A stretch of 64,000 nt of DNA from NCBI GenBank assembly GCA_964019135.1, contig OZ025264.1:744001-808000 (forward strand). Reading direction: 5' to 3'. The notes below the pieces were generated by a model, which worked only from the letters and a program-made list of their open reading frames with translations, searched no databases and was not told the origin of the DNA. Source of the stretch: Arenicola marina. Its lineage: Eukaryota > Annelida > Polychaeta > Arenicolidae. Below are positions 36,201 to 63,200 of the stretch, piece after piece (within the stretch, counting starts at the first letter, position 1; each line of letters opens with the position of its first letter). Made by a program: the position numbers and the translations under genes.

Positions 36201-39200
36201 GTATTAGAAATATCACCCTATAAACAGGTCAGGTGCACTGTGTACTGACACTGTTAGTATTAGAAATATCACCCTATAAACAGGTCAGATGCACTGTGTA
36301 CTGACACTGTTAGTATTAGAAATATCACCCTATAAACAGGTCAGATGCACTGTGTACTGACACTGTTTGTATTAGAAGTATCACCCTATAAACAGGTCAG
36401 ATGCACTGTGTACTGACACTGTTAGTATTAGAAATATCACCCTATAAACAGGTCAGGTGCACTGTGTACTGACACTGTTAGTATTAGAAATATCACCCTA
36501 TAAACAGGTCAGATGCACTGTGTACTGACACTGTTAGTATTAGAAATATCACCCTATAAACAGGTCAGATGCACTGTGTACTGACACTGTTTGTATTAGA
36601 AGTATCACCCTATAAACAGGTCAGATGCACTGTGTACTGACACTGTTAGTATTAGAAATATCACCCTATAAACAGGTCAGATGCACTGTGTACTGACACT
36701 GTTAGTATTAGAAATATCACCCTATAAACAGGTCAGATGCACTGTGTACTGGTAATATTAGTATTAGAAATATCACCCTATAAACAGGTCAGATGCACTG
36801 TGTACTGGTAATATTAGTATTAGAAATATCACCCTATAAACAGGTCAGGTGCACTGTGTACTGACACTGTTAGTATTAGAAATATCACCCTATAAACAGG
36901 TCAGATGCACTGTGTACTGGTAATATTAGTATTAGAAATATCACCCTATAAACAGGTCAGATGCACTGTGTACTGACACTGTTAGTATTAGAAATATCAC
37001 CCTATAAACAGGTCAGGTGCACTGTGTACTGACACTGTTAGTATTAGAAATATCACCCTATAAACAGGTCAGATGCACTGTGTACTGACACTGTTTGTAT
37101 TAGAAGTATCGCCCTATAAACAGGTCAGGTGCACTGTGTACTGACACTGTTTGTATTAGAAATATCACCCTATAAACAGGTCAGGTGCACTGTGTACTGA
37201 CACTGTTAGTATTAGAAATATCACCCTATAAACAGGTCAGGTGCACTGTGTACTGACACTGTTAGTATTAGAAATATCACCCTATAAACAGGTCAGATGC
37301 ACTGTGTACTGACACTGTTAGTATTAGAAATATCACCCTATAAACAGGTCAGATGCACTGTGTACTGACACTGTTTGTATTAGAAGTATCACCCTATAAA
37401 CAGGTCAGATGCACTGTGTACTGACACTGTTAGTATTAGAAATATCACCCTATAAACAGGTCAGGTGCACTGTGTACTGACACTGTTAGTATTAGAAATA
37501 TCACCCTATAAACAGGTCAGATGCACTGTGTACTGACACTGTTAGTATTAGAAATATCACCCTATAAACAGGTCAGATGCACTGTGTACTGACACTGTTT
37601 GTATTAGAAGTATCACCCTATAAACAGGTCAGATGCACTGTGTACTGACACTGTTAGTATTAGAAATATCACCCTATAAACAGGTCAGATGCACTGTGTA
37701 CTGACACTGTTAGTATTAGAAATATCACCCTATAAACAGGTCAGATGCACTGTGTACTGGTAATATTAGTATTAGAAATATCACCCTATAAACAGGTCAG
37801 ATGCACTGTGTACTGACACTGTTAGTATTAGAAATATCACCCTATAAACAGGTCAGATGCACTGTGTACTGGTAATATTAGTATTAGAAATATCACCCTA
37901 TAAACAGGTCAGGTGCACTGTGTACTGACACTGTTAGTATTAGAAATATCGCCCTATAAACAGGTCATATGCACTGTGTACTGACACTGTTTGTATTAGA
38001 AATATCACCCTATAAACAGGTCATATGCACTGTGTACTGGTAATATTAGTATTAGAAGTATCACCCTATAAACAGGTCAGGTGCACTGTGTACTGACACT
38101 GTTTGTATTAGAAATATCACCCTATAAACAGGTCAGATGCACTGTGTACTGGTAATATTAGTATTAGAAGTATCACCCTATAAACAGGTCATATGCACTG
38201 TGTACTGACACTGTTTGTATTAGAAATATCACCCTCTAAACAGGTCAGATGCACTGTGTACTGGTAATATTAGTATTAGAAGTATCACCCTATAAACAGG
38301 TCATATGCACTGTGTACTGACACTGTTTGTATTAGAAGTATCACCCTATAAACAGGTCAGATGCACTGTGTACTGACACTGTTAGTATTAGAAGTATCGC
38401 CCTATAAACAGGTCAGGTGCACTGTGTACTGGTAATATTAGTATTAGAAGTATCACCCTATAAACAGGTCAGATGCACTGTGTACTGACACTGTTAGTAT
38501 TAGAAGTATCACCCTATAAACAGGTCATATGCACTGTGTACTGACACTGTTTGTATTAGAAGTATCACCCTATAAACAGGTCAGATGCACTGTGTACTGA
38601 CACTGTTAGTATTAGAAATATCACCCTATAAACAGGTCAGATGCACTGTGTACTGACACTGTTTGTATTAGAAATATCACCCTATAAACAGGTCAGATGC
38701 ACTGTGTGCTGACACTGTTAGTATTAGAAGTATCACCCTATAAACAGGTCATATGCACTGTGTACTGACACTGTTTGTATTAGAAGTATCACCCTATAAA
38801 CAGGTCAGATGCACTGCGTACTGACACTGTTAGTATTAGAAGTATCGCCCTATAAACAGGTCAGATGCACTGTGTACTGACACTGTTAGTATTAGAAGTA
38901 TCGCCCTATAAACAGGTCAGATGCACTGTGTACTGACACTGTTAGTATTAGAAGCATCACCCTATAAACAGGTCAGATGCACTGTGTACTGACATTGTTA
39001 GTATTAGAAATATCACCCTATAAACAGGTCAGATGCACTGTGTACTGACACTGTTTGTATTAGAAATATCACCCTATAAACAGGTCAGATGCACTGTGTA
39101 CTGACACTGTTAGTATTAGAAGTATCACCCTATAAACAGGTCAGATGCACTGTGTACTGACACTGTTTGTATTAGAAATATCACCCTATAAACAGGTCAG

Positions 39201-42200
39201 ATGCACTGTGTACTGACACTGTTAGTATTAGAAGTATCACCCTATAAACAGGTCAGATGCACTGTGTACTGACACTGTTTGTATTAGAAATATCACCCTA
39301 TAAACAGGTCAGATGCACTGTGTACTGACACTGTTAGTATTAGAAGTATCACCCTATAAACAGGTCAGATGCACTGTGTACTGACACTGTTAGTATTAGA
39401 AATATCACCCTATAAACAGGTCAGGTGCACTGTGTACTGACACTGTTAGTATTAGAAATATCACCCTATAAACAGGTCAGATGCACTGTGTGCTAGTACT
39501 GTCAGTATTAGAAGTATCACCCTCTATACCGGTCAGATGCACTGTGTGCTAGTAATGTTAGTATTAGAAGTATCAGTGTCCCCCTGTCAACAGTCAGTTG
39601 CACTATGCTACCATTAAGAAGATCGCATTAGAATAGGCAAAATACCATAGCTCAAAGCCAACCCCAGGTATCAAATTGTTGCGACTTGTAGATGGGCTTT
39701 GAGATTTATGTCTCACAGCCAGTATGAGGCCTGACGCTTGGCTACTGTGTGTAATATACATATTTATTTTTCGAAGAGCCTGTTGCAGATCATGCGAAGT
39801 AAGAGTGGTAGTATTTTCTAATGTGAAACTTATTGTGAAGATTCAACTTAAGTTCAGTGCGGAGATACTTTTTGAAATCTCTCTGAATAATTCACGGTTG
39901 GATATTGATGTTTAAATTGGTTTCATGCTTGTAGAGTGTGTTCACGCAAAGACTGGAAGGTGGGGATCGACAGAAAGCCATGAAGAGGCTGCGAGTTCCA
40001 CCTCTCGGAGAGAAAGTTAGTTAACTGAACCTATGTGAACTTAACACGTGTAGCTAAGTAGTGGCTAGCGCGCCGAAGCACGGCATTATCAATTTATGTC
40101 TGATAATTTTTTTAATTATAATTCATGGTGATTGTCCTGAAGCGTTCTTCTTTATGCCCAAAAGACATTAATATTATTTTCTTGATGATATCCATGTCAA
40201 AAACCTTTTGTCTTTGTCTGCTATGTATTGTTCTCACGATGTGCTCAATATAGAATTCATATATTTCCAGCAAAATCCATGGTCTACATTCCGAATTGGT
40301 CTCTTCGCTGGGATCTTCATCGTACTCTTAACCGTTGGGATAATCGCAGGTAATAGCTGTTAGTGAGTGTAGCAGCAGTACTTTACACCCTGATTACACA
40401 GTTCACACTCAGGTAATAGCTGTTAATGAGTGTAGCAGCAGTACTTTACACCCTGATTACACAGTTCACACTCAGGTAACAGCTGTTAATGAGTGTAGCA
40501 GCAGTACTTTACACCCTGATTACACAGTTCACACTCAGGTAATAGCTGTTAATGAGTGTAGCAGCAGTACTTTACACCCTGATTACACAGTTCACACTCA
40601 GGTAATAGCTGTTAATGAGTGTAGCAGCAGTACTTTACACCCTGATTACACAGTTCACACTCAGGTAATAGCTGTTAATGAGTGTAGCAGCAGTACTTTA
40701 CACCCTGATTACACAGTTCACACTCAGGTAATAGCTGTTAATGAGTGTAGCAGCAGTACTTTACACCCTGATTACACAGTTCACACTCAAGTAATAGCTG
40801 TTAATGAGTGTAGCAGCAGTACTTTACACCCTGATTACACAGTTCACACCCAGGTAATAGCTGTTAGTGAGTGTAGCAGCAGTACTTTACACCCTGGTTA
40901 CACAGTTCACACTCAGGTAATAGCTGTTAATGAGTGTAGCAGCAGTACTTTACACCCTGATTACACAGTTCACACTCAGGTAATAGCTGTTAATGAGTGT
41001 AGCAGCAGTACTTTACACCCTGATTACACAGTTCACACTCAGGTAATAGCTGTTAATGAGTGTAGCAGCAGTACTTTACACCCTGATTACACAGTTCACA
41101 CTCAGGTAATAGCTGTTAATGAGTGTAGCAGCAGTACTTTACACCCTGATTACACAGTTCACACTCAGGTAATAGCTGTTAGTGAGTGTAGCAGCAGTAC
41201 TTTACACCCTGGTTACACAGTTCACACTCAGGTAATAGCTGTTAATGAGTGTAGCAGCAGTACTTTACACCCTGATTACACAGTTCACACTCAGGTAACA
41301 GCTGTTAGTGAGTGTAGCAGCAGTACTTTACACCCTGATTACACAGTTCACACTCAGGTAACAGCTGTTAATGAGTGTAGCAGCAGTACTTTACACCCTG
41401 ATTACACAGTTCACACTCAGGTAATAGCTGTTAATGAGTGTAGCAGCAGTACTTTACACCCTGATTACACAGTTCACACTCAGGTAACAGCTGTTAATCA
41501 GTGTAGCAGCAGTACTTTACACCCTGATAATCGCAGGTAACAGCTGTTAATCAGTGTAGCAGCAGTACTTTACACCCTGATAATCGCAGGTAATAGCTGT
41601 TAATGAGTGTAGCAGCAGTACTTTACATCCTGATTACACAGTTCACACTCAGGTAATAGCTGTTAGTGAGTGTAGCAGCAGTACTTTACACCCTGGTTAC
41701 ACAGTTCACACTCAGGTAACAGCTGTTAGTGAGTGTAGCAGCAGTACTTTACACCCTGATTACACAGTTCACACTCAGGTAACAGCTGTTAATGAGTGTA
41801 GCAGCAGTACTTTACACCCTGATTACACAGTTCACACTCAGGTAATAGCTGTTAATGAGTGTAGCAGCAGTACTTTACACCCTGATTACACAGTTCACAC
41901 TCAGGTAACAGCTGTTAATCAGTGTAGCAGCAGTACTTTACACCCTGATAATCGCAGGTAACAGCTGTTAATCAGTGTAGCAGCAGTACTTTACACCCTG
42001 ATAATCGCAGGTAATAGCTGTTAATGAGTGTAGCAGCAGTACTTTACACCCTGATTACACAGTTCACACTCAGGTAATAGCTGTTAGTGAGTGTAGCAGC
42101 AGTACTTTACACCCTGGTTACACAGTTCACACTCAGGTAATAGCTGTTAGTGAGTGTAGCAGCAGTACTTTACACCCTGATTACACAGTTCACACTCAGG

Positions 42201-45200
42201 TAACAGCTGTTAATGAGTGTAGCAGCAGTACTTTACACCCTGATTACACAGTTCACACTCAGGTAATAGCTGTTAATGAGTGTAGCAGCAGTACTTTACA
42301 CCCTGATTACACAGTTCACACTCAGGTAACAGCTGTTAATCAGTGTAGCAGCAGTACTTTACACCCTGATTACACAGTTCACACTCAGGTAACAGCTGTT
42401 AATGAGTGTAGCAGCGGTACTTTACACCCTGATTACACAGTTCACACTCAGGTAATAGCTGTTAGTGAGTGTAGCAGCAGTACTTTACACCCTGATTACA
42501 CAGTTCACACTCAGGTAACAGCTGTTAATGAGTGTAGCAGCAGTACTTTACACCCTGATTACACAGTTCACACTCAGGTAATAGCTGTTAGTGAGTGTAG
42601 CAGCAGTACTTTACACCCTGATTACACAGTTCACACTCAGGTAACAGCTGTTAATCAGTGTAGCAGCAGTACTTTACACCCTGATTACACAGTTCACACT
42701 CAGGTAACAGCTGTTAATGAGTGTAGCAGCAGTACTTTACACCCTGATTACACAGTTCACACTCAGGTAACAGCTGTTAATGAGTGTAGCAGCAGTACTT
42801 TACACCCTGATTACACAGTTCACACTCAGGTAATAGCTGTTAGTGAGTGTAGCAGCAGTACTTTACACCCTGGTTACACAGTTCACACTCAGGTAATAGC
42901 TGTTAGTGAGTGTAGCAGCAGTACTTTACACCCTGATTACACAGTTCACACTCAGGTAATAGCTGTTAGTGAGTGTAGCAGCAGTACTTTACACCCTGAT
43001 TACACAGTTCACACTCAGGTAATAGCTGTTAGTGAGTGTAGCAGCAGTACTTTACACCCTGATTACACAGTTCACACTCAGGTAACAGCTGTTAATGAGT
43101 GTAGCAGCAGTACTTTACACCCTGATTACACAGTTCACACTCAGGTAATAGCTGTTAATGAGTGTAGCAGCAGTACTTTACACCCTGATTACACAGTTCA
43201 CACTCAGGTAATAGCTGTTAGTGAGTGTAGCAGCAGTACTTTACACCCTGATTACACAGTTCACACTCAGGTAATAGCTGTTAATGAGTGTAGCAGCAGT
43301 ACTTTACACCCTGATTACACAGTTCACACTCAGGTAATAGCTGTTAATGAGTGTAGCAGCAGTACTTTACACCCTGATTACACAGTTCACACTCAGGTAA
43401 TAGCTGTTAATGAGTGTAGCAGCAGTACTTTACACCCTGATTACACAGTTCACACTCAGGTAATAGCTGTTAGTGAGTGTAGCAGCAGTACTTTACACCC
43501 TGGTTACACAGTTCACACTCAGGTAATAGCTGTTAATGAGTGTAGCAGCAGTACTTTACACCCTGATTACACAGTTCACACTCAGGTAATAGCTGTTAAT
43601 GAGTGTAGCAGCAGTACTTTACACCCTGATTACACAGTTCACACTCAGGTAATAGCTGTTAATGAGTGTAGCAGCAGTACTTTACACCCTGATTACACAG
43701 TTCACACTCAGGTAATAGCTGTTAATGAGTGTAGCAGCAGTACTTTACACCCTGATTACACAGTTCACACTCAGGTAATAGCTGTTAGTGAGTGTAGCAG
43801 CAGTACTTTACACCCTGGTTACACAGTTCGCACTCAGGTAATAGCTGTTAATGAGTGTAGCAGCAGTACTTTACACCCTGATTACACAGTTCACACTCAG
43901 GTAACAGCTGTTAGTGAGTGTAGCAGCAGTACTTTACACCCTGATTACACAGTTCACACTCAGGTAACAGCTGTTAATGAGTGTAGCAGCAGTACTTTAC
44001 ACCCTGATTACACAGTTCACACTCAGGTAATAGCTGTTAATGAGTGTAGCAGCAGTACTTTACACCCTGATTACACAGTTCACACTCAGGTAACAGCTGT
44101 TAATCAGTGTAGCAGCAGTACTTTACACCCTGATAATCGCAGGTAACAGCTGTTAATCAGTGTAGCAGCAGTACTTTACACCCTGATAATCGCAGGTAAT
44201 AGCTGTTAATGAGTGTAGCAGCAGTACTTTACACCCTGATTACACAGTTCACACTCAGGTAATAGCTGTTAGTGAGTGTAGCAGCAGTACTTTACACCCT
44301 GGTTACACAGTTCACACTCAGGTAACAGCTGTTAGTGAGTGTAGCAGCAGTACTTTACACCCTGATTACACAGTTCACACTCAGGTAACAGCTGTTAATG
44401 AGTGTAGCAGCAGTACTTTACACCCTGATTACACAGTTCACACTCAGGTAATAGCTGTTAATGAGTGTAGCAGCAGTACTTTACACCCTGATTACACAGT
44501 TCACACTCAGGTAACAGCTGTTAATCAGTGTAGCAGCAGTACTTTACACCCTGATAATCGCAGGTAACAGCTGTTAATCAGTGTAGCAGCAGTACTTTAC
44601 ACCCTGATAATCGCAGGTAATAGCTGTTAATGAGTGTAGCAGCAGTACTTTACACCCTGATTACACAGTTCACACTCAGGTAATAGCTGTTAGTGAGTGT
44701 AGCAGCAGTACTTTACACCCTGGTTACACAGTTCACACTCAGGTAATAGCTGTTAGTGAGTGTAGCAGCAGTACTTTACACCCTGATTACACAGTTCACA
44801 CTCAGGTAACAGCTGTTAATGAGTGTAGCAGCAGTACTTTACACCCTGATTACACAGTTCACACTCAGGTAATAGCTGTTAATGAGTGTAGCAGCAGTAC
44901 TTTACACCCTGATTACACAGTTCACACTCAGGTAACAGCTGTTAATCAGTGTAGCAGCAGTACTTTACACCCTGATTACACAGTTCACACTCAGGTAACA
45001 GCTGTTAATGAGTGTAGCAGCAGTACTTTACACCCTGATTACACAGTTCACACTCAGGTAATAGCTGTTAGTGAGTGTAGCAGCAGTACTTTACACCCTG
45101 ATTACACAGTTCACACTCAGGTAACAGCTGTTAATGAGTGTAGCAGCAGTACTTTACACCCTGATTACACAGTTCACACTCAGGTAATAGCTGTTAGTGA

Positions 45201-48200
45201 GTGTAGCAGCAGTACTTTACACCCTGATTACACAGTTCACACTCAGGTAACAGCTGTTAATCAGTGTAGCAGCAGTACTTTACACCCTGATTACACAGTT
45301 CACACTCAGGTAACAGCTGTTAATGAGTGTAGCAGCAGTACTTTACACCCTGATTACACAGTTCACACTCAGGTAACAGCTGTTAATGAGTGTAGCAGCA
45401 GTACTTTACACCCTGATTACACAGTTCACACTCAGGTAATAGCTGTTAGTGAGTGTAGCAGCAGTACTTTACACCCTGGTTACACAGTTCACACTCAGGT
45501 AATAGCTGTTAGTGAGTGTAGCAGCAGTACTTTACACCCTGATTACACAGTTCACACTCAGGTAATAGCTGTTAGTGAGTGTAGCAGCAGTACTTTACAC
45601 CCTGATTACACAGTTCACACTCAGGTAATAGCTGTTAGTGAGTGTAGCAGCAGTACTTTACACCCTGATTACACAGTTCACACTCAGGTAACAGCTGTTA
45701 ATGAGTGTAGCAGCAGTACTTTACACCCTGATTACACAGTTCACACTCAGGTAACAGCTGTTAATGAGTGTAGCAGCAGTACTTTACACCCTGATTACAC
45801 AGTTCACACTCAGGTAATAGCTGTTAGTGAGTGTAGCAGCAGTACTTTACACCCTGGTTACACAGTTCACACTCAGGTAACAGCTGTTAGTGAGTGTAGC
45901 AGCAGTACTTTACACCCTGATTACACAGTTCACACTCAGGTAATAGCTGTTAGTGAGTGTAGCAGCAGTACTTTACACCCTGGTTACACAGTTCACACTC
46001 AGGTAATAGCTGTTAGTGAGTGTAGCAGCAGTGCTTTACACCCTGATTACACAGTTCACACTCAGGTAACAGCTGTTAATGAGTGTAGCAGCAGTACTTT
46101 ACACCCTGATTACACAGTTCACACTCAGGTAATAGCTGTTAATGAGTGTAGCAGCAGTACTTTACACCCTGATTACACAGTTCACACTCAGGTAATAGCT
46201 GTTAATGAGTGTAGCAGCAGTACTTTACACCCTGATTACACAGTTCACACTCAGGTAATAGCTGTTAGTGAGTGTAGCAGCAGTACTTTACACCCTGGTT
46301 ACACAGTTCGCACTCAGGTAATAGCTGTTAATGAGTGTAGCAGCAGTACTTTACACCCTGATTACACAGTTCACACTCAGGTAACAGCTGTTAGTGAGTG
46401 TAGCAGCAGTACTTTACACCCTGATTACACAGTTCACACTCAGGTAACAGCTGTTAATGAGTGTAGCAGCAGTACTTTACACCCTGATTACACAGTTCAC
46501 ACTCAGGTAATAGCTGTTAATGAGTGTAGCAGCAGTACTTTACACCCTGATTACACAGTTCACACTCAGGTAACAGCTGTTAATCAGTGTAGCAGCAGTA
46601 CTTTACACCCTGATAATCGCAGGTAACAGCTGTTAATCAGTGTAGCAGCAGTACTTTACACCCTGATAATCGCAGGTAATAGCTGTTAATGAGTGTAGCA
46701 GCAGTACTTTACACCCTGATTACACAGTTCACACTCAGGTAATAGCTGTTAGTGAGTGTAGCAGCAGTACTTTACACCCTGGTTACACAGTTCACACTCA
46801 GGTAACAGCTGTTAGTGAGTGTAGCAGCAGTACTTTACACCCTGATTACACAGTTCACACTCAGGTAACAGCTGTTAATGAGTGTAGCAGCAGTACTTTA
46901 CACCCTGATTACACAGTTCACACTCAGGTAATAGCTGTTAATGAGTGTAGCAGCAGTACTTTACACCCTGATTACACAGTTCACACTCAGGTAACAGCTG
47001 TTAATCAGTGTAGCAGCAGTACTTTACACCCTGATAATCGCAGGTAACAGCTGTTAATCAGTGTAGCAGCAGTACTTTACACCCTGATAATCGCAGGTAA
47101 TAGCTGTTAATGAGTGTAGCAGCAGTACTTTACACCCTGATTACACAGTTCACACTCAGGTAATAGCTGTTAGTGAGTGTAGCAGCAGTACTTTACACCC
47201 TGGTTACACAGTTCACACTCAGGTAATAGCTGTTAGTGAGTGTAGCAGCAGTACTTTACACCCTGATTACACAGTTCACACTCAGGTAACAGCTGTTAAT
47301 GAGTGTAGCAGCAGTACTTTACACCCTGATTACACAGTTCACACTCAGGTAATAGCTGTTAATGAGTGTAGCAGCAGTACTTTACACCCTGATTACACAG
47401 TTCACACTCAGGTAACAGCTGTTAATCAGTGTAGCAGCAGTACTTTACACCCTGATTACACAGTTCACACTCAGGTAACAGCTGTTAATGAGTGTAGCAG
47501 CAGTACTTTACACCCTGATTACACAGTTCACACTCAGGTAATAGCTGTTAGTGAGTGTAGCAGCAGTACTTTACACCCTGATTACACAGTTCACACTCAG
47601 GTAACAGCTGTTAATGAGTGTAGCAGCAGTACTTTACACCCTGATTACACAGTTCACACTCAGGTAATAGCTGTTAGTGAGTGTAGCAGCAGTACTTTAC
47701 ACCCTGATTACACAGTTCACACTCAGGTAACAGCTGTTAATCAGTGTAGCAGCAGTACTTTACACCCTGATTACACAGTTCACACTCAGGTAACAGCTGT
47801 TAATGAGTGTAGCAGCAGTACTTTACACCCTGATTACACAGTTCACACTCAGGTAACAGCTGTTAATGAGTGTAGCAGCAGTACTTTACACCCTGATTAC
47901 ACAGTTCACACTCAGGTAATAGCTGTTAGTGAGTGTAGCAGCAGTACTTTACACCCTGGTTACACAGTTCACACTCAGGTAATAGCTGTTAGTGAGTGTA
48001 GCAGCAGTACTTTACACCCTGATTACACAGTTCACACTCAGGTAATAGCTGTTAGTGAGTGTAGCAGCAGTACTTTACACCCTGATTACACAGTTCACAC
48101 TCAGGTAATAGCTGTTAGTGAGTGTAGCAGCAGTACTTTACACCCTGATTACACAGTTCACACTCAGGTAACAGCTGTTAATGAGTGTAGCAGCAGTACT

Positions 48201-51200
48201 TTACACCCTGATTACACAGTTCACACTCAGGTAACAGCTGTTAATGAGTGTAGCAGCAGTACTTTACACCCTGATTACACAGTTCACACTCAGGTAATAG
48301 CTGTTAGTGAGTGTAGCAGCAGTACTTTACACCCTGGTTACACAGTTCACACTCAGGTAACAGCTGTTAGTGAGTGTAGCAGCAGTACTTTACACCCTGA
48401 TTACACAGTTCACACTCAGGTAATAGCTGTTAGTGAGTGTAGCAGCAGTACTTTACACCCTGATTACACAGTTCACACTCAGGTAATAGCTGTTAGTGAG
48501 TGTAGCAGCAGTACTTTACACCCTGATTACACAGTTCACACTCAGGTAATAGCTGTTAGTGAGTGTAGCAGCAGTACTTTACACCCTGGTTACACAGTTC
48601 ACACTCAGGTAATAGCTGTTAGTGAGTGTAGCAGCAGTGCTTTACACCCTGATTACACAGTTCACACTCAGGTAACAGCTGTTAATGAGTGTAGCAGCAG
48701 TACTTTACACCCTGATTACACAGTTCACACTCAGGTAATAGCTGTTAATGAGTGTAGCAGCAGTACTTTACACCCTGATTACACAGTTCACACTCAGGTA
48801 ACAGCTGTTAATCAGTGTAGCAGCAGTACTTTACACCCTGATTACACAGTTCACACTCAGGTAATAGCTGTTAATGAGTGTAGCAGCAGTACTTTACACC
48901 CTGATTACACAGTTCACACTCAGGTAATAGCTGTTAGTGAGTGTAGCAGCAGTACTTTACACCCTGATTACACAGTTCACACTCAGGTAACAGCTGTTAA
49001 TGAGTGTAGCAGCAGTACTTTACACCCTGATTACACAGTTCACACTCAGGTAATAGCTGTTAGTGAGTGTAGCAGCAGTACTTTACACCCTGATTACACA
49101 GTTCACACTCAGGTAACAGCTGTTAATCAGTGTAGCAGCAGTACTTTACACCCTGATTACACAGTTCACACTCAGGTAACAGCTGTTAATGAGTGTAGCA
49201 GCAGTACTTTACACCCTGATTACACAGTTCACACTCAGGTAACAGCTGTTAATGAGTGTAGCAGCAGTACTTTACACCCTGATTACACAGTTCACACTCA
49301 GGTAATAGCTGTTAGTGAGTGTAGCAGCAGTACTTTACACCCTGGTTACACAGTTCACACTCAGGTAATAGCTGTTAGTGAGTGTAGCAGCAGTACTTTA
49401 CACCCTGATTACACAGTTCACACTCAGGTAATAGCTGTTAGTGAGTGTAGCAGCAGTACTTTACACCCTGATTACACAGTTCACACTCAGGTAATAGCTG
49501 TTAGTGAGTGTAGCAGCAGTACTTTACACCCTGATTACACAGTTCACACTCAGGTAACAGCTGTTAATGAGTGTAGCAGCAGTACTTTACACCCTGATTA
49601 CACAGTTCACACTCAGGTAACAGCTGTTAATGAGTGTAGCAGCAGTACTTTACACCCTGATTACACAGTTCACACTCAGGTAATAGCTGTTAGTGAGTGT
49701 AGCAGCAGTACTTTACACCCTGGTTACACAGTTCACACTCAGGTAACAGCTGTTAGTGAGTGTAGCAGCAGTACTTTACACCCTGATTACACAGTTCACA
49801 CTCAGGTAATAGCTGTTAGTGAGTGTAGCAGCAGTACTTTACACCCTGATTACACAGTTCACACTCAGGTAATAGCTGTTAGTGAGTGTAGCAGCAGTAC
49901 TTTACACCCTGATTACACAGTTCACACTCAGGTAATAGCTGTTAGTGAGTGTAGCAGCAGTACTTTACACCCTGATTACACAGTTCACACTCAGGTAACA
50001 GCTGTTAGTGAGTGTAGCAGCAGTACTTTACACCCTGATTACACAGTTCACACTCAGGTAATAGCTGTTAGTGAGTGTAGCAGCAGTACTTTACACCCTG
50101 ATTACACAGTTCACACTCAGGTAATAGCTGTTAGTGAGTGTAGCAGCAGTACTTTACACCCTGATTACACAGTTCACACTCAGGTAATAGCTGTTAGTGA
50201 GTGTAGCAGCAGTACTTTACACCCTGGTTACACAGTTCACACTCAGGTAATAGCTGTTAATGAGTGTAGCAGCAGTACTTTACACCCTGATTACACAGTT
50301 CACACTCAGGTAATAGCTGTTAGTGAGTGTAGCAGCAGTACTTTACACCCTGATTACACAGTTCACACTCAGGTAATAGCTGTTAATGAGTGTAGCAGCA
50401 GTACTTTACACCCTGGTTACACAGTTCACACTCAGGTAATAGCTGTTAATGAGTGTAGCAGCAGTACTTTACACCCTGGTTACACAGTTCACACTCAGGT
50501 AACAGCTGTTAATGAGTGTAGCAGCAGTACTTTACACCCTGATTACACAGTTCACACTCAGGTAATAGCTGTTAGTGAGTGTAGCAGCAGTACTTTACAC
50601 CCTGATTACACAGTTCACACTCAGGTAATAGCTGTTAGTGAGTGTAGCAGCAGTACTTTACACCCTGGTTACACAGTTCACACTCAGGTAATAGCTGTTA
50701 GTGAGTGTAGCAGCAGTACTTTACACCCTGATTACACAGTTCACACTCAGGTAACAGCTGTTAGTGAGTGTAGCAGCAGTACTTTACACCCTGATTACAC
50801 AGTTCACACTCAGGTAATAGCTGTTAATGAGTGTAGCAGCAGTACTTTACACCCTGATTACACAGTTCACACTCAGGTAATAGCTGTTAGTGAGTGTAGC
50901 AGCAGTACTTTACACCCTGGTTACACAGTTCACACTCAGGTAATAGCTGTTAGTGAGTGTAGCAGCAGTACTTTACACCCTGGTTACACAGTTCACACTC
51001 AGGTAATAGCTGTTAGTGAGTGTAGCAGCAGTACTTTACACCCTGATTACACAGTTCACACTCAGGTAACAGCTGTTAGTGAGTGTAGCAGCAGTACTTT
51101 ACACCCTGATTACACAGTTCACACTCAGGTAATAGCTGTTAGTGAGTGTAGCAGCAGTACTTTACACCCTGATTACACAGTTCACACTCAGGTAACAGCT

Positions 51201-54200
51201 GTTAGTGAGTGTAGCAGCAGTACTTTACACCCTGATTACACAGTTCACACTCAGGTAATAGCTGTTAATGAGTGTAGCAGCAGTACTTTACACCCTGATT
51301 ACACAGTTCACACTCAGGTAATAGCTGTTAGTGAGTGTAGCAGCAGTACTTTACACCCTGGTTACACAGTTCACACTCAGGTAATAGCTGTTAGTGAGTG
51401 TAGCAGCAGTACTTTACACCCTGGTTACACAGTTCACACTCAGGTAATAGCTGTTAGTGAGTGTAGCAGCAGTACTTTACACCCTGATTACACAGTTCAC
51501 ACTCAGGTAACAGCTGTTAGTGAGTGTAGCAGCAGTACTTTACACCCTGATTACGCAGTTCACACTCAGGTAATAGCTGTTAATGAGTGTAGCAGCAGTA
51601 CTTTACACCCTGATTACACAGTTCACACTCAGGTAATAGCTGTTAGTGAGTGTAGCAGCAGTACTTTACACCCTGGTTACACAGTTCACACTCAGGTAAT
51701 AGCTGTTAGTGAGTGTAGCAGCAGTACTTTACACCCTGATTACACAGTTCACACTCAGGTAATAGCTGTTAGTGAGTGTAGCAGCAGTACTTTACACCCT
51801 GATTACACAGTTCACACTCAGGTAATAGCTGTTAATGAGTGTAGCAGCAGTACTTTACACCCTGATTACACAGTTCACACTCAGGTAATAGCTGTTAGTG
51901 AGTGTAGCAGCAGTACTTTACACCCTGATTACACAGTTCACACTCAGGTAATAGCTGTTAGTGAGTGTAGCAGCAGTACTTTACACCCTGGTTACACAGT
52001 TCACACTCAGGTAATAGCTGTTAGTGAGTGTAGCAGCAGTACTTTACACCCTGATTACACAGTTCACACTCAGGTAACAGCTGTTAATGAGTGTAGCAGC
52101 AGTACTTTACACCCTGATTACACAGTTCACACTCAGGTAATAGCTGTTAGTGAGTGTAGCAGCAGTACTTTACACCCTGATTACGCAGTTCACACTCAGG
52201 TAATAGCTGTTAATGAGTGTAGCAGCAGTACTTTACACCCTGATTACACAGTTCACACTCAGGTAATAGCTGTTAATGAGTGTAGCAGCAGTACTTTACA
52301 CCCTGATTACACAGTTCACACTCAGGTAATAGCTGTTAATGAGTGTAGCAGCAGTACTTTACACCCTGATTACACAGTTCACACTCAGGTAATAGCTGTT
52401 AATGAGTGTAGCAGCAGTACTTTACACCCTGATTACACAGTTCACACTCAGGTAATAGCTGTTAGTGAGTGTAGCAGCAGTACTTTACACCCTGATTACA
52501 CAGTTCACACTCAGGTAACAGCTGTTAATGAGTGTAGCAGCAGTACTTTACACCCTGATTACACAGTTCACACTCAGGTAATAGCTGTTAATGAGTGTAG
52601 CAGCAGTACTTTACACCCTGATTACACAGTTCACACTCAGGTAATAGCTGTTAATGAGTGTAGCAGCAGTACTTTACACCCTGGTTACACAGTTCACACT
52701 CAGGTAATAGCTGTTAATGAGTGTAGCAGCAGTACTTTACACCCTGGTTACACAGTTCACACTCAGGTAACAGCTGTTAATGAGTGTAGCAGCAGTACTT
52801 TACACCCTGATTACACAGTTCACACTCAGGTAATAGCTGTTAATGAGTGTAGCAGCAGTACTTTACACCCTGATTACACAGTTCACACTCAGGTAATAGC
52901 TGTTAATGAGTGTAGCAGCAGTACTTTACACCCTGATTACACAGTTCACACTCAGGTAATAGCTGTTAATGAGTGTAGCAGCAGTACTTTACACCCTGAT
53001 TACACAGTTCACACTCAGGTAATAGCTGTTAATGAGTGTAGCAGCAGTACTTTACACCCTGATTACACAGTTCACACTCAGGTAATAGCTGTTAATGAGT
53101 GTAGCAGCAGTACTTTACACCCTGATTACACAGTTCACACTCAGGTAACAGCTGTTAATGAGTGTAGCAGCAGTACTTTACACCCTGGTTACACAGTTCA
53201 CACTCAGGTAATAGCTGTTAGTGAGTGTAGCAGCAGTACTTTACACCCTGGTTACACAGTTCACACTCAGGTAATAGCTGTTAGTGAGTGTAGCAGCAGT
53301 ACTTTACACCCTGATTACACAGTTCACACTCAGGTAATAGCTGTTAGTGAGTGTAGCAGCAGTACTTTACACCCTGATTACACAGTTCACACTCAGGTAA
53401 TAGCTGTTAGTGAGTGTAGCAGCAGTACTTTACACCCTGATTACACAGTTCACACTCAGGTAACAGCTGTTAATGAGTGTAGCAGCAGTACTTTACACCC
53501 TGATTACACAGTTCACACTCAGGTAACAGCTGTTAGTGAGTGTAGCAGCAGTACTTTACACCCTGATTACACAGTTCACACTCAGGTAATAGCTGTTAGT
53601 GAGTGTAGCAGCAGTACTTTACACCCTGATTACACAGTTCACACTCAGGTAACAGCTGTTAATGAGTGTAGCAGCAGTACTTTACACCCTGATTACACAG
53701 TTCACACTCAGGTAACAGCTGTTAATGAGTGTAGCAGCAGTACTTTACACCCTGATTACACAGTTCACACTCAGGTAATAGCTGTTAGTGAGTGTAGCAG
53801 CAGTACTTTACACCCTGATTACACAGTTCACACTCAGGTAACAGCTGTTAATGAGTGTAGCAGCAGTACTTTACACCCTGATTACACAGTTCACACTCAG
53901 GTAACAGCTGTTAATGAGTGTAGCAGCAGTACTTTACACCCTGATTACACAGTTCACACTCAGGTAATAGCTGTTAATGAGTGTAGCAGCAGTACTTTAC
54001 ACCCATATTACACAGTTCACACTCAGGTAATAGCTGTTAATGAGTGTAGCAGCAGTACTTTACACCCTGATTACACAGTTCACACTCAGGTAATAGCTGT
54101 TAATGAGTGTAGCAGCAGTACTTTACACCCTGATTACACAGTTCACACTCAGGTAATAGCTGTTAGTGAGTGTAGCAGCAGTACTTTACACCCTGGTTAC

Positions 54201-57200
54201 ACAGTTCACACTCAGGTAACAGCTGTTAGTGAGTGTAGCAGCAGTACTTTACACCCTGATTACACAGTTCACACTCAGGTAATAGCTGTTAGTGAGTGTA
54301 GCAGCAGTACTTTACACCCTGATTACACAGTTCACACTCAGGTAACAGCTGTTAATCAGTGTAGCAGCAGTACTTTACACCCTGATTACACAGTTCACAC
54401 TCAGGTAATAGCTGTTAATGAGTGTAGCAGCAGTACTTTACACCCTGATTACACAGTTCACACTCAGGTAATAGCTGTTAGTGAGTGTAGCAGCAGTACT
54501 TTACACCCTGGTTACACAGTTCACACTCAGGTAATAGCTGTTAGTGAGTGTAGCAGCAGTACTTTACACCCTGGTTACACAGTTCACACTCAGGTAATAG
54601 CTGTTAGTGAGTGTAGCAGCAGTACTTTACACCCTGATTACACAGTTCACACTCAGGTAATAGCTGTTAGTGAGTGTAGCAGCAGTACTTTACACCCTGA
54701 TTACACAGTTCACACTCAGGTAATAGCTGTTAGTGAGTGTAGCAGCAGTACTTTACACCCTGATTACACAGTTCACACTCAGGTAACAGCTGTTAATGAG
54801 TGTAGCAGCAGTACTTTACACCCTGATTACACAGTTCACACTCAGGTAACAGCTGTTAGTGAGTGTAGCAGCAGTACTTTACACCCTGATTACACAGTTC
54901 ACACTCAGGTAATAGCTGTTAGTGAGTGTAGCAGCAGTACTTTACACCCTGATTACACAGTTCACACTCAGGTAACAGCTGTTAATGAGTGTAGCAGCAG
55001 TACTTTACACCCTGATTACACAGTTCACACTCAGGTAACAGCTGTTAATGAGTGTAGCAGCAGTACTTTACACCCTGATTACACAGTTCACACTCAGGTA
55101 ATAGCTGTTAGTGAGTGTAGCAGCAGTACTTTACACCCTGATTACACAGTTCACACTCAGGTAACAGCTGTTAATGAGTGTAGCAGCAGTACTTTACACC
55201 CTGATTACACAGTTCACACTCAGGTAACAGCTGTTAATGAGTGTAGCAGCAGTACTTTACGCCCTGATTACACAGTTCACACTCAGGTAATAGCTGTTAA
55301 TGAGTGTAGCAGCAGTACTTTACACCCAGATTACACAGTTCACACTCAGGTAATAGCTGTTAATGAGTGTAGCAGCAGTACTTTACACCCTGATTACACA
55401 GTTCACACTCAGGTAATAGCTGTTAATGAGTGTAGCAGCAGTACTTTACACCCTGATTACACAGTTCACACTCAGGTAATAGCTGTTAGTGAGTGTAGCA
55501 GCAGTACTTTACACCCTGGTTACACAGTTCACACTCAGGTAATAGCTGTTAGTGAGTGTAGCAGCAGTACTTTACACCCTGATTACACAGTTCACACTCA
55601 GGTAACAGCTGTTAATGAGTGTAGCAGCAGTACTTTACACCCTGATTACACAGTTCACACTCAGGTAATAGCTGTTAATGAGTGTAGCAGCAGTACTTTA
55701 CACCCTGATTACACAGTTCACACTCAGGTAATAGCTGTTAATGAGTGTAGCAGCAGTACTTTACACCCTGGTTACACAGTTCACACTCAGGTAATAGCTG
55801 TTAATGAGTGTAGCAGCAGTACTTTACACCCTGGTTACACAGTTCACACTCAGGTAACAGCTGTTAATGAGTGTAGCAGCAGTACTTTACACCCTGATTA
55901 CACAGTTCACACTCAGGTAATAGCTGTTAATGAGTGTAGCAGCAGTACTTTACACCCTGATTACACAGTTCACACTCAGGTAATAGCTGTTAATGAGTGT
56001 AGCAGCAGTACTTTACACCCTGATTACACAGTTCACACTCAGGTAATAGCTGTTAATGAGTGTAGCAGCAGTACTTTACACCCTGATTACACAGTTCACA
56101 CTCAGGTAATAGCTGTTAATGAGTGTAGCAGCAGTACTTTACACCCTGATTACACAGTTCACACTCAGGTAATAGCTGTTAATGAGTGTAGCAGCAGTAC
56201 TTTACACCCTGATTACACAGTTCACACTCAGGTAACAGCTGTTAATGAGTGTAGCAGCAGTACTTTACACCCTGGTTACACAGTTCACACTCAGGTAATA
56301 GCTGTTAGTGAGTGTAGCAGCAGTACTTTACACCCTGGTTACACAGTTCACACTCAGGTAATAGCTGTTAGTGAGTGTAGCAGCAGTACTTTACACCCTG
56401 ATTACACAGTTCACACTCAGGTAATAGCTGTTAGTGAGTGTAGCAGCAGTACTTTACACCCTGATTACACAGTTCACACTCAGGTAATAGCTGTTAGTGA
56501 GTGTAGCAGCAGTACTTTACACCCTGATTACACAGTTCACACTCAGGTAACAGCTGTTAATGAGTGTAGCAGCAGTACTTTACACCCTGATTACACAGTT
56601 CACACTCAGGTAACAGCTGTTAGTGAGTGTAGCAGCAGTACTTTACACCCTGATTACACAGTTCACACTCAGGTAATAGCTGTTAGTGAGTGTAGCAGCA
56701 GTACTTTACACCCTGATTACACAGTTCACACTCAGGTAACAGCTGTTAATGAGTGTAGCAGCAGTACTTTACACCCTGATTACACAGTTCACACTCAGGT
56801 AACAGCTGTTAATGAGTGTAGCAGCAGTACTTTACACCCTGATTACACAGTTCACACTCAGGTAATAGCTGTTAGTGAGTGTAGCAGCAGTACTTTACAC
56901 CCTGATTACACAGTTCACACTCAGGTAACAGCTGTTAATGAGTGTAGCAGCAGTACTTTACACCCTGATTACACAGTTCACACTCAGGTAACAGCTGTTA
57001 ATGAGTGTAGCAGCAGTACTTTACACCCTGATTACACAGTTCACACTCAGGTAATAGCTGTTAATGAGTGTAGCAGCAGTACTTTACACCCAGATTACAC
57101 AGTTCACACTCAGGTAATAGCTGTTAATGAGTGTAGCAGCAGTACTTTACACCCTGATTACACAGTTCACACTCAGGTAATAGCTGTTAATGAGTGTAGC

Positions 57201-60200
57201 AGCAGTACTTTACACCCTGATTACACAGTTCACACTCAGGTAATAGCTGTTAGTGAGTGTAGCAGCAGTACTTTACACCCTGGTTACACAGTTCACACTC
57301 AGGTAACAGCTGTTAGTGAGTGTAGCAGCAGTACTTTACACCCTGATTACACAGTTCACACTCAGGTAATAGCTGTTAGTGAGTGTAGCAGCAGTACTTT
57401 ACACCCTGATTACACAGTTCACACTCAGGTAACAGCTGTTAATCAGTGTAGCAGCAGTACTTTACACCCTGATTACACAGTTCACACTCAGGTAATAGCT
57501 GTTAATGAGTGTAGCAGCAGTACTTTACACCCTGATTACACAGTTCACACTCAGGTAATAGCTGTTAGTGAGTGTAGCAGCAGTACTTTACACCCTGGTT
57601 ACACAGTTCACACTCAGGTAATAGCTGTTAGTGAGTGTAGCAGCAGTACTTTACACCCTGGTTACACAGTTCACACTCAGGTAATAGCTGTTAGTGAGTG
57701 TAGCAGCAGTACTTTACACCCTGATTACACAGTTCACACTCAGGTAATAGCTGTTAGTGAGTGTAGCAGCAGTACTTTACACCCTGATTACACAGTTCAC
57801 ACTCAGGTAATAGCTGTTAGTGAGTGTAGCAGCAGTACTTTACACCCTGATTACACAGTTCACACTCAGGTAACAGCTGTTAATGAGTGTAGCAGCAGTA
57901 CTTTACACCCTGATTACACAGTTCACACTCAGGTAACAGCTGTTAGTGAGTGTAGCAGCAGTACTTTACACCCTGATTACACAGTTCACACTCAGGTAAT
58001 AGCTGTTAGTGAGTGTAGCAGCAGTACTTTACACCCTGATTACACAGTTCACACTCAGGTAACAGCTGTTAATGAGTGTAGCAGCAGTACTTTACACCCT
58101 GATTACACAGTTCACACTCAGGTAACAGCTGTTAATGAGTGTAGCAGCAGTACTTTACACCCTGATTACACAGTTCACACTCAGGTAATAGCTGTTAGTG
58201 AGTGTAGCAGCAGTACTTTACACCCTGATTACACAGTTCACACTCAGGTAACAGCTGTTAATGAGTGTAGCAGCAGTACTTTACACCCTGATTACACAGT
58301 TCACACTCAGGTAACAGCTGTTAATGAGTGTAGCAGCAGTACTTTACGCCCTGATTACACAGTTCACACTCAGGTAATAGCTGTTAATGAGTGTAGCAGC
58401 AGTACTTTACACCCAGATTACACAGTTCACACTCAGGTAATAGCTGTTAATGAGTGTAGCAGCAGTACTTTACACCCTGATTACACAGTTCACACTCAGG
58501 TAATAGCTGTTAATGAGTGTAGCAGCAGTACTTTACACCCTGATTACACAGTTCACACTCAGGTAATAGCTGTTAGTGAGTGTAGCAGCAGTACTTTACA
58601 CCCTGGTTACACAGTTCACACTCAGGTAACAGCTGTTAGTGAGTGTAGCAGCAGTACTTTACACCCTGATTACACAGTTCACACTCAGGTAATAGCTGTT
58701 AGTGAGTGTAGCAGCAGTACTTTACACCCTGATTACACAGTTCACACTCAGGTAACAGCTGTTAATCAGTGTAGCAGCAGTACTTTACACCCTGATTACA
58801 CAGTTCACACTCAGGTAATAGCTGTTAATGAGTGTAGCAGCAGTACTTTACACCCTGATTACACAGTTCACACTCAGGTAATAGCTGTTAATGAGTGTAG
58901 CAGCAGTACTTTACACCCTGATTACACAGTTCACACTCAGGTAATAGCTGTTAATCAGTGTAGCAGCAGTACTTTACACCCTGATTACACAGTTCACACT
59001 CAGGTAATAGCTGTTAATGAGTGTAGCAGCAGTACTTTACACCCTGATTACACAGTTCACACTCAGGTAATAGCTGTTAATGAGTGTAGCAGCAGTACTT
59101 TACACCCTGATTACACAGTTCACACTCAGGTAATAGCTGTTAATGAGTGTAGCAGCAGTACTTTACACCCTGATTACACAGTTCACACTCAGGTAATAGC
59201 TGTTAATGAGTGTAGCAGCAGTACTTTACACCCTGGTTACACAGTTCACACTCAGGTATTAGCTGTTAGTGAGTGTAGCAGCAGTACTTTACACCCTGAT
59301 TACACAGTTCACACTCAGGTAATAGCTGTTAATGAGTGTAGCAGCAGTACTTTACACCCTGATTACACAGTTCACACTCAGGTAACAGCTGTTAATGCGT
59401 GTAGCAGCAGTACTTTACACCCTGGTTACACAGTTCACACTCAGGTAATAGCTGTTAATGAGTGTAGCAGCAGTACTTTACACCCTGATTACACAGTTCA
59501 CACTCACCTCATTATACAGCCATTGTTGAGGACGAGTTTCATCTTCTCTATTTTACAGTTTGACTTACTTTCATTAACTGATAACTCTGAGTTTGTCATT
59601 TGTTATTTTTACTGTATTTTTAACACTCATAGTCAAAGCGAATAAAGCACACGCATTTGAGAGTCGATCCATGAGTTCCTGTGGCTGGCTTTCTGAATGC
59701 CCAATCAGCGCTGCGTCGTCAGCGAATACCAGTTCTCTTATTAGGAAGCGCCTCCGCTTGGACTTAGCGCACAATCTTGAAAGGTTGTACAGTTTCCCAT
59801 CAGATCTGGTGTGCACCCTCCGCATCCTCATCGAATGCGTGCGAATTGAGCATAGAGAAGAAGATGCCAAATAAAGTTGGCGCAAGAATACAACCCTGCT
59901 TCACGCCATTTCTGACTTGGAAGCTCTCGGACGTAGGTTCGTCGAACTGTACTGTGCTGAACGAGCATTCATGAAAGGAGCGGATAAGGTTAAGTAGTCT
60001 GCGCTGCCCAAGGAATCGATTGCATCATCCAACTGGCGAACCGAGGGAACTCTGTCCAGGTCGTTCATGACCGGCAGTCGGGGTAATGCGTCCAGCGCCG
60101 TTGCCGATACATAAGACTCGTGCGCGTACAATGAGACATATCGTTCCACCCAGCGAGACATCTGTTTGCTACGATCTGTAATCACCTCGCCATCAACATG

Positions 60201-63200
60201 ACTTTAAGGGGGTTGTTTTAGTGACCTTGGGGCCTAGGGCTTTCTTAATTCCGGTGTACTTTGCCGGCATATTACCTCTATCAGAAGCCTCGTGGATCTG
60301 CTCGCAGAGAGTTATTCAGTATTGATTGGCGCAATAACGCGCTGTTTTTTGTACTGCGTTTCTTGCCAGCCTCAGCTGTAACAGACGTGTTTGTCGGATT
60401 TTTATTGTGTTGTGTTTTTCATCTTTGGCTTCAATAACTGGTTCCATTTCTGCTGAGTGAGTGGCGAACCAAGTATTGTTATTTATCACGGCAAAAGGAT
60501 CCACCTTCCCGAAACAAGCGAAACGATATCGTATCGTATAATATCGTATAATTACAATATCGTGAATGTTGCATCCTCCTTTTTATATTGTCTGGAGCCT
60601 CCCTGGTTCCGTTGGTAAGCAGGCAGAGCTGCAGATCTCCCGGTTATGGGATCAAACCCTGTCTGGCACCTGCACCTGAGGCAGGTTTCGTGGCCTAATT
60701 TAGTTTTCAGGTGCACAAAAGTAGCATAAAACACCAACCCTTCATTTAATCTTTATATACCCGTGCTCCGCCGTATGTGAGCTTGTCGGGTTTTCTCCTA
60801 TATTTTATGTTTTTAGCGGTGTACATGTTCTACATCTTCCCTCGTTTGTGAGCTTATCGGGTTTTCTCCAATATTTTCGGTGTTTACTGATGTACAATTT
60901 CTATATCTTCCGTCGTTTGTGAGTTATCGGGTTTTCTCCAATGTTTTGCGGTGTTTAGGGGTGTACAATTTCTATATCTTCCGTCGTTTGTGAGTAATCG
61001 GGTTTTCTCCAATATTTTGCGGTGTTTAGGGGTGTACGATTTCTATATCTTCCCTCGTTTGTGAGTTATCAAGTTTTTTCCAATATTTTCGGTGTTTAGG
61101 GGTGTACATTTTCTATATCTTCCGCCGTTTGCAACTTTATCGGGTTTTCTTCAATATTTTCGGTGTTTAGGGGTGTACAATTTCTATATCTTCCGCCGTT
61201 TGTGAACTTATCGGGGTTTCTGCTATGTTTCTGGTGTTTAGCGGTGTACATCCGGCCCCTGCCCCGCGAGCAGTGGGAGCCCGCGCTGCGGATCTACCGC
61301 GGCGTCTTCCTCACCATCCTCTGCATGTTCCTGCTCGGCCTCAACACGTACGGCTGGCGCACCTCAGGTGTCAACCACGTGCTCATCTTCGAGCTCGACC
61401 CCCGAGACCACCTGACGCATCAACAGTTGCTGGAGGTGAGTGTGTGTGGAGGGGGGTGAAAGGGATCGGAGGGGGGGGGGGTCAGTTGTTACATCGTTGT
61501 TATATCTGGAGTCAGAACAAAAGAGCGGGTAGCGGTTTTATTTGGGCTAATCATGTGAAATAAAAGCGAGATGGAGTAGCCAAAACAATGTACGGTAGAC
61601 TTTTTTATTAGCGGAGTCGATAATATTATGATCGAAAGGTGGCGCATGAACCTACAACTGCAGACCGACATGGTGCAGGTTCACACGTCACCTGTGTCTT
61701 GCCTCGATCCACCTGTTTCATATCAGTGTCAACTCTCCTGGGAGCGGTGTCTCCCATTTGTTCTTAACAGTCTCCTGAAAAAAATCGATCAATGTCTGAC
61801 GAGTTACAGTGCCTCAAAACTTCTGAGTCTGAGTCTGTACATATTTTACACCATAAAATGACATTCTATGCAATTCCTGTTGTAATACGTCATACATATC
61901 AATAGGGTTCGGCCTTTGTTTCGTTGCAGATCGCCTGTTTGTTTGCCGTCATTTGGTCGCTCAGTATCCTGGCATTCTTGTTCAGCCCGGAGATCAACAT
62001 CCCGGGTCTAGTGAACCCCCTGTGTCTTGTGGTCTTTTGTGTCCTCTACCTCCTCAACCCGATCCACATTCTCCACTTTAAGGCCCGTCGCTGGCTCCTC
62101 AGGGTCCTGGTAAGTTAACACGCTGCCCCTGCTGACCCTCCTATGCCTGACGAATGATCTCTTTTACTGTACATACATATAAATATTTTCTGTTCCAAAG
62201 GACATGACCCTGACTTGTCAGACTGACAGACAGGTGCGTCTCGTCGTTTTTTGTGTTTAAAATGTTATTGATTTATTTTAGATGTTACCAATATTGAACT
62301 CAGGTGTGAAGGATCACCATAAGTGTTGCTTTCTTGTGTACTACGTCACCAAAACTGGGCCATAGCCATAGTCATTCGTAAAAATATAGGTAGACGTATC
62401 CAATAAATTTTGAAAAAAAAGTCTTTTGTATTGATAATACTATAATAGTAGTATGAATAGCTGTATGAACATCTTTAATTTTTTATCTTCCTCGTTTTAG
62501 TTAACGCGTCCTGTATCGGTAATAAACTTTTCTTTCTACGTTTTTTTTCACGGCTCCGCGTTGTTCGCATTTGTCTTCCAGTTCCGTATTTTCACGGCGC
62601 CGTTTCACCACGTGGGGTTCGCTGACTTCTGGCTGGCCGACCAGCTGAACAGTCTGACCATGGTACTACTCGACCTACAGTACCTCATCTGTTTCTATGC
62701 AGTCGAAGTGGAGTGGCTTAACTACTGTGAGTGTCTACACTGCTACCAAGCACATGGCAAGAACTACAGCCTGTCTATAATAAATTTACTCGTACATTAA
62801 AAGCCTTTAGGCCTATTGTCCTCAATGTAAACTAATTTAAATTTACAGACTGGCTACACTGTTACCATGTGCTGGTAATAAACTACAGTCTCTCTAGGCT
62901 GTTACCATGTGCTGGCAATGAACTACAGTCTGTCTAGACTATTACCATGTGCTGGCAATGAACTACAGTCTGTCTAGACTATTACCATGTGCTGGCAATG
63001 AACTATAGTCTGTCTAGACGGTTACAATGTGCTGGCAATGAACTATAGTCTGTCTAGACTGTTAGCAAGTGCTGGCAATGAACTATAGTCTGTCTAGACG
63101 GTTACCATGTGCTGGCAATGAACTATAGTCTGTCTAGACTGTTACCATGTGCTGGCAATGAACTATATTCTGTCTAGACTGTTAGCAAGTGCTGGCAATG

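Follow-up and report, generated by a model that had tools for sequence, protein, structure and literature searches.

How does an intron come to consist almost wholly of copies of its own 5′ splice site, and how might such copies be tolerated? The question is raised by a 64,000-nucleotide stretch of the annelid Arenicola marina (hereafter the window, C19:744001-808000 of a genome of 867 Mb in 762 contigs; positions given without a contig are those of the window), in which the intron after coding exon 7 of XPR1 opens with a tandem array of 306 units, every one retaining the GT of the 5′ splice site (donor). We consider it probable that this array and others nearby are of the type described in amphioxus as mirages, that is, tandem duplications across splice sites, enlarged by unequal exchange and tolerated through use of the exon-proximal donor.

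The Donor Array of XPR1 Intron 7

The plus-strand XPR1/SLC53A1 gene has coding exons from 30218 onward. Its name, proposed in the initial annotation of this stretch, was borne out by structure-chain, Pfam, and tblastn matches: the frame at 34122-34460 matched solved XPR1 chains (best E=2.7e-22) and also the Pfam SPX domain, and Pfam recognized an EXS domain in a later frame. Exons were located by tblastn in the window and its right flank, with human XPR1 for query; the number of intron 7 counts the coding exons so located and leaves untranslated region (UTR) exons uncounted. Exon edges throughout are deduced from homology plus GT/AG in one assembly, and copy numbers in the 20-kb arrays hinge on the quality of that assembly. 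The elements of this intron are as follows (slashes mark splice junctions).

40271 to 40349, plus strand: XPR1 coding exon 7 (tblastn match 40280-40351; 3′ end from GT and phase, 5′ end deduced from the preceding TTTCCAG)
40347 to 59506, plus strand: 306 tandem copies of a 63-bp unit that includes the 5′ splice site, the first starting 3 bp within the exon (CAG/GTAAYAG; Tandem Repeats Finder, TRF, and pattern searches)
60767 to 61251, plus strand: 71-bp array of the 3′ splice site (acceptor), its unit reaching 10 bp into exon 8 (TRF and sequence context)
61242 to 61435, plus strand: XPR1 coding exon 8 (tblastn match 61241-61441; edges deduced from AG and GT)

Exon 7 reads ...VGIIA G in phase 1 and ends at 40349, with GT from 40350; the array therefore abuts the real donor, as had been claimed. 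For 40347-59506 TRF reports a period of 63, 306 copies, and a 97% match. The exact motif CAGGTAAYAG occurs 304 times (spacings 289 x 63, 12 x 53, and 2 x 126), and a looser, GT-requiring pattern resolves 306 consecutive units of 23 types, free of gaps, so that by regular-expression count GT is intact in 306/306. The initial annotation had equated the intron with a 19-kb array. The array is real, but the intron is larger (40350-61241, GT...AG, 20,892 bp): the array makes up 91.7% of it, and about 1.7 kb of nonarray sequence and an acceptor array are present as well. On the minus strand at 59574-60203 lie two frames that by recognition resemble reverse transcriptase remnants; Pfam gave no name for the one tested. 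The array is also open over 4,184 codons (47091-59645) in a frame that differs from that of exon 7, a by-product of the 63-bp period.

Are the copies donors of the same quality as the first? All units were scored against CAGGTRAGT, a check the initial annotation had proposed, and 304 of them agree at 7/9 positions, exactly like the real donor, the other two at 6/9. The "perfect donor" once ascribed to each unit is thus an overstatement. Position +5, which varies more than any of the other eight donor positions in this array, is T in about two thirds of the units and C in one third, neither being the consensus G, and the A at +6 is off consensus too. Using any one of the 305 decoys would bring a stop into the exon frame.

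The unit appears to be strictly local. Its first 32 bases (at most two mismatches) give 306 matches in the genome, the same 306 as in the window, and hence none outside the array across 867 Mb. A mobile or introner-like element inserted at the splice site was considered, since introners carry splice sites; it was rejected on this lack of dispersal, and with neighboring arrays having other units, which match their own exons, we regard its probability as practically negligible. Within the array, unit identity reaches 0.34 at a 49-unit lag, compared with 0.16 from composition, with an exact run of 24 units; such internal block duplications suggest turnover.

Exon Sequence at Both Ends of the Intron

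The common 63-bp unit has CAG in common with the end of exon 7. A second type of unit contains more of the exon: the last 11 bp of exon 7, GATAATCGCAG, recur in 12 internal units.

41526 to 47100, plus strand: stretch with the 12 exon-7-tail units at 53-bp spacing (motif positions and junction context)
41526, 41579, 41947, 42000, 44132, 44185, 44553, 44606, 46612, 46665, 47033, and 47086: copies of GATAATCGCAG

These units read ...CACCCTGATAATCGCAG/GTAAYAG, and the exon 7 end reads ...TTGGGATAATCGCAG/GTAATAG. Two copies 53 bp apart make a pair, two such pairs at a distance of 421 bp make a block, and the three blocks follow at intervals of 2,606 and 2,480 bp. The simplest reading would be a duplication that started within exon 7, was joined at GAT, and was then recopied. 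Unit junctions fall at shared 3-bp words, CAG and GAT.

At the opposite end of the intron the acceptor is multiplied. TRF gives 6.8 copies of the 71-bp unit with an 86% match, and seven TTTAG/TTTAC sites are each followed by a sequence like NGGTGTAC, with which exon 8 starts. The seventh of these sites is the real acceptor; AG is kept in five of the six copies upstream of it. Elsewhere in XPR1 no acceptor array was seen.

Arrays Elsewhere in XPR1 and in Neighboring Genes

Inspection by eye of 14 XPR1 donors revealed donor arrays in introns 5, 7, 11, and 14, and a donor-related array in intron 10.

34938 to 39575, plus strand: intron 5 donor array, 56 bp, 83 units; exon ends at 34939, GT in 83/83
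62727 to 64000, plus strand: intron 10 donor GTGAGTGTC... and 40-bp donor-related array, the array running from 62850 to 64013, past the window
C19:808616-811812, beyond the window: intron 11 donor array, 42 bp, 76 units, the unit with about 28 nt of exon
C19:814794-815196: intron 14 donor array, 87 bp x 4.7

The intron 5 decoys are mostly CAG/GTCAGA and the real donor is GAG/GTCAGA; judged by motif, the decoys do not fall short of the real site. The 40-bp array of intron 10 is related to the donor region (local alignment score 27, against at most 17 in 1000 shuffles) yet does not include the donor itself. The intron 11 array spans from within exon 11 to 71 nt upstream of exon 12, an arrangement that invites another explanation, namely, that the intron was newly made by tandem duplication of an exonic AG/GT and is not an old intron that gained arrays. 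The amphioxus work (PMC3087553) did suggest that new introns might arise from mirages, but the nonarray sequence and the separate acceptor array of intron 7 speak against this origin, which we hold to be very unlikely. Upstream of the first XPR1 coding exon, 39- and 40-bp arrays (26090-27313) have a unit resembling a 3′ splice site (TTCTATCCTAG/TCAAC) and are possibly the acceptor array of a UTR exon. Two further arrays of the window, 432-2145 (23 bp, 75 copies) and 2788-14011 (39 bp, 293 copies), have no exon recognized at their edges.

The surroundings are rich in repeats: arrays scoring at least 150 take up 49% of the 264 kb around the window. The scale of the XPR1 array had been called unusual. 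It is not unique: 65 kb away, flotillin-1 has an array that exceeds it a little in length and also in number of units, a 20-bp unit (AG/GTCAGT) repeated about 1,042 times (C19:699344-719036, 19.7 kb), with GT intact in 99.8% of units. It follows directly after an exon matching flotillin-1 positions 184-240; the next exon matches 240-302 and runs into a further donor array containing its last 24 nt. Pfam gave no name for either exon. A medium-chain acyl-CoA dehydrogenase exon at C19:845442 (minus strand) also ends in a donor array (43 bp, 18 units), and arrays near 738-740 kb contain exon tails that we take, by recognition, to be RXR-like.

Array Starts in a Sample of Exons

A wider view was obtained from kinesin and myosin-head matches (77 + 133 = 210 rows). 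Seventeen rows were dropped (five on contigs C390, C504, and C536, seven repeated in a C4 myosin gene, and five weak or with internal stops), every third of the remaining 193 was taken (65), and 45 exons of these were analyzed with 600-nt flanks. When arrays of TRF score at least 100 were counted, 11/15 downstream arrays start within 60 nt of the end of the exon match (p=5e-6 under uniform starts), against 4/16 upstream arrays with ends close to the start of the exon (p=0.41); a one-sided Fisher test between the two sides gives p=0.009. Here the edges of the exon matches are approximate and the null is a simple one, and the genes sampled, for kinesins and myosins, are perhaps not typical. By eye the junction itself lies within eight of the 11 donor-side arrays (L032, L040, L050, L051, L055, L059, L066, and L071); L040 has a GC donor, and in L066 the GT is altered in the consensus. 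L050 is a two-copy, 100% identical duplication across the donor; the duplications, local and across splice junctions, thus range from two identical copies to about a thousand. The acceptor-side arrays of the four sampled cases have 2.0 to 13.8 copies, that of L039 ending 27 nt before the exon match.

Several results weigh against the mirage-type model. Three of the 11 donor-side arrays (L031, L042, and L067) proved on inspection to have no donor. In a recurrence test donors were positive in 10/45 exons versus 7/45 for deeper intron, and acceptors in 4/45 versus 5/45; for several of the ten donor-side positives the best recurring GT lies near the donor without being the donor, and of the seven deeper-intron positives six belong to arrays starting within 60 nt of the exon end. 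Coverage of donors being barely above that of deeper intron, the clustering rests on array start positions: arrays seem to begin at donors, and donors do not appear clearly more covered than introns. Among the 44 arrays of at least three copies in the 264 kb, a donor motif of at least 8/9 was found in four versus 1.1 expected (reached by 4/300 shuffles) and one of at least 7/9 in 12 versus 8.0 expected (25/300 shuffles), a weak excess in both cases. Finally, the 3-bp breakpoint words are too short as proof of microhomology.

Some further features of the sample deserve mention. About two-copy, 96% identical tandem duplications in L029 (156-363, 103 bp) and L043 (1246-1359, 60 bp) seemingly lie across other donors (ATG/GTAAGT and AAG/GTAAGG) and are possible early stages of arrays. 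Kinesin frames on C390, C504, and C536 have internal TAG and TAA and no TGA; these contigs may come from an organism with reassigned stop codons, for example, a ciliate, present as contaminant or symbiont. On C4 (367768-371306 and 380231-384073) myosin-head exon matches are repeated about 0.8-1.4 kb apart, for which alternative exons or large-unit duplications are proposed.

Origin and Tolerance of the Arrays

Under the mirage-type model, short tandem duplications with breakpoints on either side of a splice site would be enlarged by unequal exchange and block duplication. The spliceosome would normally take the exon-proximal donor, which is transcribed first and lies at the edge of a defined exon, and the mRNA would therefore be the same whatever the number of copies behind it; since later donors would add an in-frame stop, use of the first donor is the likely rule. 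Acceptor copies, lying upstream of the real acceptor, could compete with it. In transcription the real donor precedes its copies but the real acceptor follows its own; under a first-come rule donor copies would thus be tolerated and acceptor copies penalized, and acceptor arrays may be short for this reason. The short acceptor-side arrays fit such a rule, although their numbers are small.

Do the copies themselves serve a function? It had been suggested that the decoys buffer or slow splicing; alternatively, U1 binding along the 19-kb intron could shield the transcript from early polyadenylation. The intact GT of all 306 units and the lack of AATAAA and ATTAAA on the sense strand of the array agree with functional decoys, but the latter are missing simply because the unit does not contain these words. 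In the five arrays compared, moreover, conservation of the donor sites does not detectably exceed that of the remaining unit (in the intron 7 comparison, 12 rows are segmentation artifacts of the 53-bp units, and a GT-intact value of 0.961 is likewise an artifact), the +5 position varies most, and the donor was lost from the intron 10 array. Predicted RNA structure does not consistently mask the decoys in introns 7, 5, and 11, the mean unpaired probability of the real donor versus decoys being 0.30 versus 0.23-0.35 (eight decoys), 0.31 versus 0.11-0.32 (11 decoys), and 0.25 versus 0.16-0.41 (13 decoys), respectively. We therefore find functional decoys quite improbable; most likely, the donors in the units are passengers of young arrays.

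A related proposal is recursive or dual-specific splicing, in which unit blocks would behave as introns and wrong choices would be removed in a second step. The GT...CAG phase of the intron 7 unit permits this, and in human tandem repeats AG/GT can act as donor and acceptor, as the available text of PMC10809524 describes for UBC, whose tandem units share this potential with those of XPR1 but are coding, whereas the latter are intronic. However, such a phase is automatic in any AG/GT tandem repeat, and by eye the stretch ahead of each CAG is poor in pyrimidines, making this reading improbable. More tentatively, and as a possibility we rate below even, active 5′ splice sites could in this lineage be mutational hotspots that seed arrays, for instance by way of R-loops or a paused polymerase where exon and intron meet, with transcription order deciding survival: donor copies would grow to about a thousand, acceptor copies would be purged while short, and the genome would record that the first donor wins.

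Comparison with Known Systems

The initial annotation had named amphioxus mirages as the closest parallel, and the anatomy is indeed the same. In the accessible parts of PMC3087553 and PMC3902484, mirages are minisatellite-like tandem duplications over exon-intron boundaries, 5′ or 3′, often with AG/GT, in Adh, troponin C, globin, and PGBD5, and some abut the 5′ splice site; reverse transcription PCR was reported to suggest regular splicing of mirage genes (PMC3087553). The XPR1 arrays are likewise minisatellite-like (63 bp x 306 and 71 bp x 6.8), their units span the deduced boundaries (CAG/GTAA or 11 bp of exon 7 on the donor side, 10 bp of exon 8 on the acceptor side), 5′ and 3′ boundaries are both duplicated, and AG/GT is kept (GT in 306/306 donors, AG in 5/6 acceptor decoys). 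They differ in host, an annelid and not a cephalochordate, in affecting both ends of one intron, and in scale, with arrays of 19-20 kb made of 306 and about 1,042 units, compared with the two to seven repeats given for globin and PGBD5 mirages in the same partial sources (PMC3087553, PMC3902484). Intron gain by tandem duplication (PMC4974935, in the part available) resembles our case in that a duplication involving an exon can yield new splice sites; in XPR1, by contrast, an intron end is multiplied. Earthworm metallothionein offers annelid minisatellites in intron 1, along with exon-4 duplications absent from the transcript, but its monomers average about 180 bp and the accessible text does not state splice sites in the repeats (PMC12783039). 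Among the matches listed in our literature search, no title or abstract opening announced splice-site arrays outside amphioxus, a limited negative; phylum, scale, and the clustering of array starts at donors seem to be new here.

The annelid identity of the host is in line with its mitochondrial contig, C762, which we assume to be the animal's and which reads nad3-S1-nad2-cox1-N-cox2-D-atp8-Y-G-cox3 (tRNAs by ARAGORN, cox1 by Pfam, other protein genes by recognition). The run cox1-N-cox2-D-atp8-Y...G-cox3 appears, with an extra trnE, in the Sipunculus table of PMC2639372, a paper that places the nad3 of annelids between nad1 and nad2, and the available part of PMC4866719 describes the protein-gene order as common to many annelid families. 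By this comparison, the gene order of C762 is annelid.

Our findings suggest that mirages are not peculiar to amphioxus. Should array starts be concentrated at donors across the whole genome, the growth of introns in this animal would depend on splice sites, and mutation, splicing, and genome size would be connected.

Choice among equal splice sites has usually been studied with few designed sites. Here, one genome has introns of about 5, 80, 300, and 1,000 donor copies, and one intron with both ends copied. The animal is thus a natural test of splice-site choice among near-identical decoys, from which long-read RNA alone could give the error rate per decoy.

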